From contig JACMPA010000015.1 in NCBI GenBank assembly GCA_014377695.1, positions 1 through 33,494 of the forward strand: a stretch of DNA of 33,494 bases. Direction: 5' to 3'. The stretch is from Candidatus Saccharimonadota bacterium. Its GTDB lineage: Bacteria > Patescibacteriota > Saccharimonadia > Saccharimonadales > UBA4665. Positions 10,982 to 17,348 of the stretch are shown here, one piece after another. The notes under the pieces are model-generated. The model was not told where the DNA came from. It saw only the letters and a program-made list of their open reading frames with translations, and made no database searches. The translations under genes were made by a program, and so were the position numbers. Positions within the stretch are counted from its first letter, which is position 1, and the number at the start of each line of letters is the position of its first letter.

Positions 10982-11890
10982 ATGCACAAAAATAAAAACT
11001 ATAGACTAAATGCCGCGCTGCTACTTGGCTCGGTACTACTGTTATGTACTCCAGCAAGCGTACTGGCGGCGACAACAACAACACCTACTACTAAAGGAAG
11101 CACCACTAATAAATCGACGCTCCAAGATGGATCGACCAGCCAAGCCGTAACCCAAGGGTATGGTACAACTACTCCGCTGCAGAACGGTATGATCGTGAAA
11201 CTCGTTGATAAAGACGGATCAAAAGTCGAACCGCTGACTGATGCCACCGTATCGAAGATGCAAGGCGTTGTGGTCGCTGCTAATGACGCCACGGTGACGA
11301 TTTCTAATGATGGAAATATAGGACAGGTGTTCGTCGCAACATTTGGGCATTACGACGTGCTAGTGAGCAACCAGAATGGGCCAATCAAATCGGGTGATTA
11401 CATCACAATATCAGCGATCGCTGGAGTCGGCATGAAGGTGGACACGACCCAGCCGACGGTCTTAGGTAAGGCAACCGGTAGCTTTACGGGCAATGGCACC
11501 GTGGCCGGCAGTGCCAAACTAAAGGATTCGACCGGCAAAGAAGTGTCGGTGTCACTTGGTAGGATTCCGGTCGACATCACAATTTCGCATAACCCTTTGC
11601 AGCAGGCAGCAGCGAACGGTTTGCCAAGTTTTTTGGAGCACGCTAGCGAAGCGGTTGCTGGTAAAGTCGTTAGCCCCGCCCGGGTTTATGTAGCGCTGAT
11701 CGTACTGCTCATGAGCACCTTCGTAGCCGGTGGAATCTTGTATTCTGGTGTTCGTGGTGGGCTGATAGCCATCGGCCGTAACCCGTTAGCCAAGAAGCAA
11801 ATTGTTGCTGGTATTGTGCGGGTAGTTTTGTCGGGGTTAATTTGTTTTGTTCTGGGCGTGTTCGGAGTATACTTACTACTGAAGCTTTAG
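10982..11890 (+). CDS. secreted beta-domain protein with C-terminal subunit-c-like TM hairpin
   Basis: ATG at 10982 (track start 10952 is upstream); signal peptide, beta-rich middle (GPIKSGDYITISAIAGVGMKVD), C-terminal two-TM hairpin with GRNP loop. Confidence 0.8.
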   Translation: MHKNKNYRLNAALLLGSVLLLCTPASVLAATTTTPTTKGSTTNKSTLQDGSTSQAVTQGYGTTTPLQNGMIVKLVDKDGSKVEPLTDATVSKMQGVVVAANDATVTISNDGNIGQVFVATFGHYDVLVSNQNGPIKSGDYITISAIAGVGMKVDTTQPTVLGKATGSFTGNGTVAGSAKLKDSTGKEVSVSLGRIPVDITISHNPLQQAAANGLPSFLEHASEAVAGKVVSPARVYVALIVLLMSTFVAGGILYSGVRGGLIAIGRNPLAKKQIVAGIVRVVLSGLICFVLGVFGVYLLLKL

Positions 11891-11994
11891 CGTTTTACCA
11901 ACAGTGGTACTCGTACCAAACACATCACCAAAGGCAGTAAAATAGCTAAGCAATAGTAACTTCCAAGATATATGCGGTGGGAAGAATATAAACA

Positions 11995-12609
11995 ATGACA
12001 ATCTGGTGGCTCGTTCTCATACTCGTTTTTATCGGCTCCGTCGGACTGGGTTTTGTGTGGATTATTACGCACCTTGGTGCCACCGCCCCAGCCAAAACCA
12101 CCACCGACCTGATCGAAGATAGCAAAAAAGACGTCGAGCACTTATTTAACGAAGAGTTCCGTGAGGAGCTGCGCAACCGTGGCCGGTTGCACTTCGAAAA
12201 GATCATCGGTGAAAATGCCATGTTTTTGCAACAAGATTTGCGCTTAACTACTTCTCAGCTGAACGAGTATATGAAGACCGAGATCACCCGTAAACTGACC
12301 TCGGAGTTTGATAAGTATGAACAATCAATCGATGATGCCAAACAGATGGCCATTGATTCGATTCAGAAAACAAATGCGGCCATTGATGAACAGCGCGCCT
12401 TGCTCGGTCAGCAGGTCCAAAAGGAAATTGTTGCTGAAAAGCAGCAAATGGTCCAGCGGTTTGAGCAAAACATGACCGACATCATCAACCATTACGTTAT
12501 TGCCGCCATCGGTAACCAAATTGACTTGAACGACCAGTTGGAGTACATTCTGTCCGACTTGCAAGCTAACAAAGAAGCGATTATTCAGGACATACTCAAT
12601 GGTGCTTAA
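11995..12609 (+). CDS. atpF: ATP synthase b-like stalk subunit
   Basis: single N-terminal TM helix followed by long charged coiled coil; directly precedes delta/alpha/gamma/beta/epsilon genes. Confidence 0.7.
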   Translation: MTIWWLVLILVFIGSVGLGFVWIITHLGATAPAKTTTDLIEDSKKDVEHLFNEEFREELRNRGRLHFEKIIGENAMFLQQDLRLTTSQLNEYMKTEITRKLTSEFDKYEQSIDDAKQMAIDSIQKTNAAIDEQRALLGQQVQKEIVAEKQQMVQRFEQNMTDIINHYVIAAIGNQIDLNDQLEYILSDLQANKEAIIQDILNGA

Positions 12610-12615
12610 TTACCA

Positions 12616-12657
12616 CAGATTCGGACAGTACGAGTCTGGCACGAAGCCTGGCTTCGT
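12616..12657 (+). promoter_or_regulatory. tandem hairpins in the b-like/delta intergenic region
   Basis: CAGATTCG-gacagta-CGAGTCTG (12616-12638) and ACGAAG-cctgg-CTTCGT (12641-12657). Confidence 0.5.
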
Positions 12658-14881: not shown

Positions 14882-15744
14882 AGCGCCCATCCGAACTTGC
14901 CCACGAAGAAGCATCTATGGCTACACTCGTCGAATTAACCAGTGCGTTCGAAGGCATCGCCAGTATGAAGATTGCCCAGACCAAAAACCAGGTCCTAGAA
15001 TCAACCAAATTCTTTGATCGGCTGTGGAAGATATACAGCCAAATGCGCGTTGACTCGCTCTTTACCTTTGGTCGTGACGTCGACGAAAAACCGTTGATTG
15101 ATAAAGAATTGTTCATCATGATTACCGCAGAAGGTGGCTTCAGTGGTGACATCGACCAAAAGATTCTTAAACTAGTCCTTGAAGAATACGATGCCGAGAA
15201 GCATGACATTATTGTCATAGGTCACCACGGTGCAATTCAACTAAGTCAACGTGGTATTGGTTTCAAGAAGTATTATAAACTACCAGCTAAAGACCAAAAC
15301 ATTAACGTCGTGCCAATTGTTCGTGAAGTCCAGCAATACAAGGCTGCCAGCCTGTTTTATGCTGAGTACATATCGCTCATGTCCCAAGACGTCAAAAAAA
15401 TATCATTAGCCAGTGCCGTTAAATCCCGAGCTGCGGCTGGGGAGGATGACGATGCCGAGGTGATCAGCGAGGAAACGTATATCTTCGAACCGGATAGTTT
15501 TGCTGTGGCGGCGCATTTGGAGCGCTCCATGATGCAGATTTCTATCAGCCAACTTATCCTGAGTTCAAAACTGGCTCAGTATGCCAGTCGATTTAAGGCT
15601 ATGACGGCTTCGCACCAACGAGCAGATGAATCTAGAAATGATTTACATATGGAATTTAACCGCTCTCGGCGAGCCATTAAGGATCAACGCCTTAAGGAAA
15701 TCATAACGGGCATTAAAAAAAGTACAGCAGGAGCAGGTAACTGA
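14878..15744 (+). CDS. atpG: F1-like ATPase gamma subunit
   Basis: C-terminal [44 protein letters not shown]; overlaps alpha gene by 4 nt. Confidence 0.88.
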
Positions 15745-17048
15745 TGCCAGGTTCAATTATATCGATCAAAGACCTAATTGTGCGTGTACGTTTTGATGAC
15801 GACACGCCAGATATCAACGAGCTCGTACTCCTAGACAACGGAGCTGGCACCCAGCTCCTCGTCGACCACCTGGAACCAGGTGGCATCGCCTTTTGCTTGA
15901 ACATCCGGACCGACCGCCGCATCATGAAGGGCATGGCCGTGTCACGGACGTATAAGGGCATCGAGGTACCACTTGGTGAGGCAACCATCGGTCGCATCAT
16001 GAATGCCCTGGGCGATCCGCTGGACGGTGGCGAACCCGTTACCGGGCCGGACCTCAAATACAAAAACATTATGAAACTGCCTGAACGCAGCACCAATTTC
16101 TCCATTGCGGCGCCCGAAATCCTCGAAACAGGTATCAAAGTAATCGACTTCTTTACTCCGTTCGTAAAGGGTCGTAAGATTGGTGTCATCGGTGGTGCCG
16201 GTGTCGGTAAGACGGTGGTTACCATGGAGCTCATCAACAACATTGCTCGTTCTGGTTCCGGGTTATCATTTTTTACGGGTATTGGTGAGCGCATTAGGGA
16301 AGGCCACGAGTTGTGGGACACGCTCCGCGAGAACGACCTACTTAAAAGTACCGTTATGTTTTTTGCGCAAATGAACGAAAACCCGGTCCAACGTGCCCTG
16401 ATCGGTATTTCGGCCACTGCCGCGGCTGAACACTTCCGTGATGATCTCAAAAAAGACGTTTTGTTCTTTGCCGACAACATGTTCCGCTACATTCAGGCCC
16501 GAAACGAACTGTCGACCATTCTGGATCAAGTGCCAAACGAAGGTGGCTATGAGCCAACCATCTTCTCGGACGTCAAAACCCTGCAAGACCGCTTGAGTTC
16601 CAACGAAAATGGATCTATCACATCGGTACAAACCATCTATGTCCCGGCTGACGACGTGTCCGACCCGGCAGTGCAGTTCATTGGACATGAGATGGACTCG
16701 ATTATCGTGCTGTCCCGCAAAGTGGCCGAGCAGGGCATCCGTCCAGCTGTCGACTTGAACTTAACCACGTCGTCGCTGCTGACACCAGAAATCGTCGGTG
16801 ATCGCCACTACTTGCTCAGCGTGCAGGTTATGTCGTTGCTGCAAAAATACGAATCGCTGAAAGGTATTATCGCCATCATTGGAGAGAACGAACTATCGCC
16901 AGCTGACCGATCAGATTATGCTAAAGCCAAGAAATTAATTGCCAACTTTACGCAGAATATGAACGTAATGACCAAACATAACGGTGTACCGGGTGACTTC
17001 TTTAGTCGTGACGAAACTCTCAAGTCAATCGAAGAGATCGTTATCTAG
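15744..17048 (+). CDS. atpD: F1-like ATPase beta subunit, divergent
   Basis: GGAGVGKT Walker [53 protein letters not shown] (DELSEED region). Confidence 0.95.
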
Positions 17049-17051
17049 CAA

Positions 17052-17348
17052 ATGGGTGACGAGAAGCAGGTCGAAAATAACGCGGTCGATAACATCGAGA
17101 AGGGCGTTAATATGGCTGTAAAGGTCTACTCGCCTTACAAAGTATATTTCGATGGCCTAGCCCTCAGCGTAAGTGCCGCCAGCAAGACCGGCAACTTCGA
17201 CATCCTTCCTAAGCACCACAACTTCATAACCCTGTTAGCACCCTGCGATTTAGTCGTGCGTACCGACAAAGAAGAACAGGTCATACCTATATCTGGCGGC
17301 ATTATGCACGTCAAAGCCGATGATTTAGTCGTTTTCCTCGACGTCTAA
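17052..17348 (+). CDS. atpC: F1-like ATPase epsilon subunit, beta-sandwich domain only
   Basis: VYSPYKVYFDGLALSVSAASKTGNFDILPKHHNFITLLAPCDLVV; ends without C-terminal helical hairpin; possible internal start at MAVKVYSP. Confidence 0.85.
   Translation: MGDEKQVENNAVDNIEKGVNMAVKVYSPYKVYFDGLALSVSAASKTGNFDILPKHHNFITLLAPCDLVVRTDKEEQVIPISGGIMHVKADDLVVFLDV

Follow-up and report, generated by a model that had tools for sequence, protein, structure and literature searches.

The window analysed here is the whole of a 33,494-nucleotide contig (JACMPA010000015.1 of assembly GCA_014377695.1; C34 below) of a Candidatus Saccharimonadota bacterium, whose genome comprises 819,554 bases in 36 contigs and is ~89% complete. 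Positions 10982-17348 of the window encode a seven-gene operon in the order c2-b-delta-alpha-gamma-beta-epsilon. We consider it probable that the product is a second, dedicated rotary F-type ATPase, which converts ATP hydrolysis into mechanical work across the membrane and moves no ions. All results are computed from genomes, mostly metagenome-assembled genomes (MAGs), in which the absence of a gene is weak evidence singly where the genome is incomplete and strong only in aggregate. The genes of the operon are as follows (TM, transmembrane).

10982..11890, plus strand: c2, with a signal peptide, an extracellular beta domain, and a C-terminal two-helix c-subunit hairpin that has a GRNP loop and no ion carboxylate
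11995..12609, plus strand: b2, stator b-like, with one N-terminal TM helix (residues 6-24) and a coiled coil
12681..13223, plus strand: delta2, stator delta-like, from hhalign of its C-terminal domain with canonical delta
13220..14881, plus strand: alpha2 (PF00006, E 1.8e-65)
14878..15744, plus strand: gamma2, central shaft (PF00231, E 2.9e-32)
15744..17048, plus strand: beta2, catalytic (PF00006, E 2.9e-62)
17052..17348, plus strand: epsilon2, beta-sandwich only, without the regulatory C-terminal helices (PF02823, E 4e-15)

An earlier note on this DNA had described this gene order with short overlaps, and the window coordinates bear out both: delta2/alpha2, alpha2/gamma2, and gamma2/beta2 overlap by 4, 4, and 1 nt, respectively. 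A second in-frame start of c2, GTG, lies at position 10952. None of the c-like, b-like, and delta-like proteins has a reliable match in the Pfam scan. According to the list of open reading frames (ORFs) and TM prediction, the operon contains no multi-TM protein, including a 12-TM ORF.

The F1 part retains its catalytic residues. In beta2, K156, T157, E182, R183, and R247 are invariant in 116 of 116 sequences, all of which keep the P-loop Lys/Thr, the Glu/Arg of GER, the Walker-B Asp, and R247. In alpha2, the P-loop Lys and the arginine finger R376 are present in 125 of 125 sequences. The best PDB matches of beta2 are all F1 beta, with type III ATPases far lower. The DELSEED motif of beta is replaced by a NELSPAD-like motif, and the epsilon2 family has a median length of 106 amino acids, compared with 135-152 in canonical epsilon. 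For the stator, hhalign pairs the C-terminal domain of delta2 with canonical delta (97.1%, E 6e-11) and b2 with canonical b (90.4%, E 1.4e-6), and matches appear in the correct pairing only. As judged from sequences and structural models, the F1 part is predicted to be catalytically intact, with a b/delta stator present. Set against F1Fo, the operon thus holds a catalytic core with P-loop, general base, and arginine finger, and a peripheral stalk of b and delta homologues; the ion half-channel subunit a and a c ring with a TM2 carboxylate are missing.

The hairpin of c2 comprises ~68 residues at the C-terminus. The aligned c2 hairpins match canonical c with an hhalign probability of 94.8% (E 5e-8), compared with at most 0.4% for reversed and column-shuffled controls. 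In the AlphaFold2 model, the predicted local distance difference test (pLDDT) score of the hairpin is ~90 (mean of the whole 76.9; predicted template modelling score, pTM, 0.49). In Foldseek, the hairpin model superimposes on Chloroflexus c with TMt 0.90 and 1.1 Å over 67 columns. PF00137 does not match c2 even at E = 1 in the Pfam search, and a PDB sequence search with the c2 profile returns nothing meaningful. By profile and predicted fold, the hairpin is a true F-type subunit c. Because c2 is genuinely homologous to subunit c, the rotor is retained and altered. The earlier note had the membrane part replaced; this is supported with one correction, namely that the rotor is kept in modified form.

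The loop of the hairpin is of RNP type in all 119 c2 homologues and reads GRNP in 111. The acidic residue of the TM2 core is absent in 117 of the 119, whereas each of 20 canonical c sequences has exactly one. The mean charge of the loop is +3.1 across the 119 homologues; so positive a loop fits a cytoplasmic location with the N-terminal domain outside. In accordance, c2 starts with a signal peptide, which makes its N-terminal domain extracellular. Sequence and models together show a predicted c-derived rotor hairpin with a GRNP loop, no ion carboxylate, and no partner subunit a; the c2 hairpins likely assemble into a ring. The exodomain model finds phage capsid decoration proteins in Foldseek (best E ~2e-4, TMt 0.41-0.59). 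On its own, the extracellular domain also matches segments of giant Patescibacteria proteins (1000-6000 amino acids) elsewhere, for example in G164:C4 and G290:C1. It was expected in the giant fibres that adjoin c2 and was not found in those compared.

The window set is not the only F-type set of its genome. The genome has one PF00119 match (a), one PF00137 match (c), and four PF00006 domains. Subunits a and c and one alpha/beta pair lie on another contig, C18, in a complete canonical a-c-b-delta-alpha-gamma-beta-epsilon operon, so that the genome search for atpB, atpE, and another atp operon suggested in the earlier note yields a full canonical set. Since that operon is complete, the window set is an additional, second rotary ATPase, and an ordinary operon split in two is ruled out. 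The sole PF00119 match sits in the canonical operon, and the genome has no second homologue of subunit a. As the earlier note had stated, neither subunit a nor a short c lies in or near the window operon, and both canonical subunits are likewise absent from all 80 related loci.

Phylogeny separates the two sets. In the beta tree, all 43 sequences of the window type (X-type) fall outside canonical beta of the Candidate Phyla Radiation (CPR) and of E. coli, with a bootstrap of 100. The unrooted alpha tree shows the same split between X-type and canonical sequences with support 100, one tip (CAN_L163_2684) being set aside; this tip is apparently a canonical beta that the motif filter misplaced. 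A first rooted alpha tree did not recover X-type alpha as monophyletic (node support 0.33), a result that we ascribe to the long outgroup branch. The trees thus rule out ordinary CPR F-type alpha and beta, the placement on which the earlier note had made its reading depend. Its description of intact but divergent alpha and beta agrees with the invariant catalytic residues and the separate clades. Its broader proposal, a second, repurposed rotary-type ATPase that does something other than classical proton-driven synthesis, gains support from these clades and from the canonical operon present in addition.

Genomes with only the X-type set are informative on the absence of a. PF00119 is lacking in 22 of 60 c2-bearing genomes, and 17 of these 22, which are 92-100% complete and include two from the class of the window, were searched further. 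X-type alpha and beta are present in 17 of 17. In the same genomes there is no PF00119 match and no PF00137 match over the cut-off. Most have a third, weaker PF00006 match (~1e-30), which we take to be Rho. By coordinates, 16 of the 17 have c2 no more than ~2.5 kb from alpha. With neither a nor an ordinary c, F1 in these genomes has no known ion channel to drive.

The set is widespread. Of the 93 genomes in the GTDB family to which the window belongs, 83 have X-type alpha in a search with alpha2 (matches <1e-100); canonical alpha is only ~38-44% identical to alpha2. Beyond this family, the order and the class include both families that have the type and families that lack it. The 80 related loci are the best named relatives found by the alpha search; their titles are mostly Saccharibacteria, Saccharimonadia, or Patescibacteria, and the rest are "bacterium" or apparently mis-titled MAGs. 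The six genes b2-delta2-alpha-gamma-beta-epsilon are complete in all 44 fully flanked loci. Therefore, the window set is neither a chance arrangement nor a broken operon. The synteny of the 10982 gene with F1, raised in the earlier note, holds in part: c2 is adjacent in 34 of these 44 loci and absent beside the core in 10. Across Saccharimonadia genomes, alpha2 and c2 co-occur (18/1/1/17, counts read by hand; Fisher 2e-8). The operon with c2 is also present in other lineages of the phylum (f48, f97, f21, f80, f127, and f85), often as c2-b-delta-alpha-gamma-beta-epsilon.

Some genomes carry a third F1-like set, ~50% identical (L054, L055, and L056; L057 ~44%), with its own c2, b, and delta and mostly with dn1/dn2, two of the surface-protein genes described next.

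Downstream of epsilon, a block of genes, dn1-dn7, is placed between epsilon and mnmA. The following encode predicted surface proteins.

17367..18332, minus strand: dn1, membrane-anchored fibre, with a cytosolic N-terminus, a TM helix at 54-72, a beta stalk (bactofilin-like, sub-threshold), and a beta tip
18423..19202, plus strand: dn2, secreted beta protein, with a signal peptide; travels with c2
19329..20474, plus strand: dn3, secreted beta protein, on the same basis as dn2
20486..21544, plus strand: dn4, secreted beta protein, on the same basis as dn2
21763..22767, plus strand: dn5, WxLIP-like peptidoglycan-binding protein with a C-terminal TM helix (PF06030, E 5e-8, 33.5 bits against a cut-off of 27.3)
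22924..23877, plus strand: dn6, exported PKD-domain protein with a C-terminal TM helix (PF00801, E 2.6e-6, over the cut-off)

The tip of dn1 is modelled by AlphaFold2 with pLDDT >90 and has weak fold matches to tail fibres and tailspikes; its profile matches no giant proteins. In related genomes without c2, the locus reads nifS-[b delta alpha gamma beta epsilon]-mnmA. In particular, dn1/dn2 are adjacent only at loci with c2 (24/34 vs 0/10, p = 7e-5), and the position of dn1 beside c2/F1 is conserved across related loci. Blocks of c2 and dn genes travel jointly (L109, L110, and L112), and in G008, G056, and G025 they form one block elsewhere, without F1. Another lineage, f85, also has dn5 together with F1/c2 (L114-L117); at these loci, two different c2 genes and WxLIP-like (dn5) genes flank one F1 set. 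Orphan c2 genes in L134, L137, L138, and L140 have large fibre-like or other surface proteins beside them and no F1 genes nearby.

Long fibre-like proteins are among the neighbours of c2 in f48, f21, f80, and f97. Some have a phage-type Peptidase_S74 chaperone, and several have an N-terminal MerR-type helix-turn-helix (HTH) before one TM helix. Long surface proteins with the HTH and single TM helix adjoin c2-F1 in other Patescibacteria families (L118:10125-16001, L120:1766-7165, L122:8932-12600, L123:1-2770, and L143:9882-12195); the L118 protein has no TM helix above threshold. A Peptidase_S74 intramolecular chaperone is present in L118, in L120, and in the long L142 protein. Some long ORFs near c2 are housekeeping-like by eye (leuS-/ileS-like in L121 and L134, mutS-like in L113); therefore, only ORFs with a single TM helix and fibre-like repeats are counted as fibres.

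These features suggest how the machine may work. The b/delta stator would hold F1, which would turn gamma/epsilon by ATP hydrolysis. By homology with F1Fo, gamma/epsilon would engage a ring of c2 hairpins at their GRNP loops, and the ring would turn a crown of extracellular domains. Because ions cannot bind to such a ring in the ordinary manner and there is no subunit a, the torque must go elsewhere. One output device alone is constant, the extracellular domain of c2, whose gene lies next to those for fibre and peptidoglycan-bound proteins. The crown might act on the neighbouring surface proteins, namely the single-TM fibre, the secreted beta proteins, and the peptidoglycan-bound WxLIP-like protein, and might move, wind, or load an appendage for adhesion to, or movement on, host or solid surfaces. 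In one possible geometry, the TM helix of the fibre would lie inside the c2 ring. We infer the torque step, and a purpose in gliding, adhesion, or fibre handling is suggested by analogy with the mycoplasma Type 2/3 precedent. A more far-reaching proposal is tentative and may prove either way, with the balance slightly against it: that this is a hitherto unrecognised class of rotary ATPase, found in several lineages of the Patescibacteria, whose c ring transmits torque instead of serving as an ion turbine and whose F1 spins an extracellular crown or fibre, so as to act at the surface as an ATP-powered motor for gliding, adhesion, or contact with the host.

Several observations weigh against rotation without ion movement and its link to the surface. 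A glycine zipper packs canonical c rings, and this ring-packing zipper is lost in c2, in which GxG pairs in TM1 average 0.08, compared with 2.1 in canonical c. Two near-identical related c2 genes (L224:4709-5533 and L226:2066-2890) have an Asp exactly at the canonical ion-binding position. The 10 fully flanked loci mentioned above hold the six-gene core without an adjacent c2, and in some near-complete genomes with the core, such as G069 and G074 (L044 and related loci), c2 is undetected anywhere. Furthermore, the tie between c2 and the surface genes rests on gene neighbourhood.

The same observations feed other explanations. c2 could be a static membrane collar or pore, with F1 hydrolysis powering export or assembly of the adjoining fibres in the manner of flagellar/type III ATPases. 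The long fibre genes beside c2 in several lineages fit this idea, a carboxylate-free ring could be a pore, and loss of the glycine zipper suggests another packing. However, the dn proteins carry signal peptides or signal anchors, and the retained b/delta stator and GRNP loop are sensible for rotation against a stator. In addition, the flagellar/type III secretion ATPase (FliI/SctN) is a single homohexamer without b, delta, and c, and the window set differs from it by having separate alpha and beta as well as b, delta, and c. We therefore regard a collar or pore as unlikely. We see only a slim chance that an ion or solute is still translocated, through a substitute for subunit a and with other polar groups in place of the carboxylate: the Asp in two c2 proteins and the need of stator b for some membrane partner speak for it, but no second a homologue and no multi-TM protein in the operon are available, and 117 of the 119 c2 proteins lack the carboxylate.

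Two further explanations give c2 a minor part. F1-X might be a soluble or tethered ATPase (an ATP sensor, a means of ATP dissipation, or a cytosolic scaffold), with c2 merely tethering it to the membrane and surface layer. The core does persist without adjacent c2 in some genomes, and the mycoplasma F1-like ATPase is partly cytosolic (PMC12994834). A plain tether would not need the GRNP loop, however, and the stator and rotor-loop motifs are conserved, which makes this explanation highly improbable. Still harder to credit is a hybrid ATP synthase isoform, in which canonical a and c would carry the second F1 together with its b/delta, and c2 would be a surface protein with no relation to the enzyme. 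Canonical a is present elsewhere in the Saccharimonadales tested, and some genomes hold the core without adjacent c2. In 17 genomes, however, X-type F1 occurs without a or canonical c, and c2 is a real c homologue that shares the operon across lineages. A rotary ATPase that does mechanical work without moving ions thus remains our preferred reading.

Such an ATPase can be placed among known systems. It shares with canonical bacterial F1Fo homologous alpha, beta, gamma, epsilon, delta, b, and c hairpin and the order delta-alpha-gamma-beta-epsilon. It differs in having no a, a c with a signal peptide and extracellular domain and without the ion carboxylate, an epsilon without C-terminal helices, a NELSPAD-like motif for DELSEED, and a separate alpha/beta clade. 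N-ATPases keep a and an ion-binding c, whereas the window set has no a and its c is carboxylate-less. The likeness to the N-ATPase, a laterally transferred Na+ F-type enzyme (cited in PMC10656485), is that a second F-type set stands beside the main one.

Closer in presumed function are the mycoplasma ATPases. The Type 2 F1-like ATPase is thought to drive gliding, and Type 3 serves the surface MIB-MIP system (PMC11864180, PMC12994834). Both have an alpha-, beta-, gamma-, and epsilon-like set besides F1Fo, as does the window genome. Type 2/3 F1-like X0 has no b or delta homologues (PMC3369863), and the mycoplasma proteins reportedly resemble none of a, b, and c (PMC3369863, PMC12994834). The window set resembles Type 3 in being a second F1-like set with a replaced membrane part and a surface partner system in a host-dependent, reduced bacterium (PMC3369863, PMC12994834). 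In contrast, it keeps b and delta, lacks the twelve-TM Protein 1 of the Type 2/3 cluster, and has a two-TM protein that is recognisable as subunit c and carries a small, phage-decoration-like exodomain. The earlier note's candidate, a mycoplasma F1-like-X0 machine, is accordingly not upheld. Protein 5 of mycoplasma, with an N-terminal signal, a large domain, and two C-terminal TM helices, is like c2 in layout. The Type 2 G1-ATPase of the Mycoplasma mobile gliding twin motor is also F1-derived and thought to drive extracellular movement (PMC11864180). The window set has no N-terminal beta extension, and its stator b and delta are separate genes; in the PDB search, beta2 scores 336 bits against ordinary F1 beta and 281 bits against G1 beta (9io5). 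The window set is neither canonical F1Fo nor mycoplasma F1-like-X0; in its mode of action it would be nearest to the latter, and it is built from recognisable F-type parts.

No description of the c2-F1 system was found in the literature searched, with most subscription papers outside its scope. If the machine turns surface structures, it would be a further ATP-synthase-derived motor acting outside the cell, after the mycoplasma ATPases, and to our knowledge the first to have a recognisable, modified c subunit as its transmission. The genomes make a sharp prediction: c2 with F1, no a, and no ion coupling.

It has long been a puzzle why F-type ATP synthase is retained by almost every member of the Patescibacteria, which have no respiratory chain (PMC11665869). 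A complete, proton-type ATP synthase has been reported for Saccharibacteria (PMC9296517), and the ATP synthase is reported to be dispensable in one cultured Saccharibacteria species (PMC10633639); in our view, both reports refer to the canonical operon. At least 17 near-complete genomes have only an F1 set with a rotor lacking the ion site and with no a, so that the annotation "ATP synthase" would be wrong there. If the proposed new class of rotary ATPase is real, some of the sets counted as "F-type ATP synthases" in CPR genomes that lack respiration would not be ATP synthases at all.

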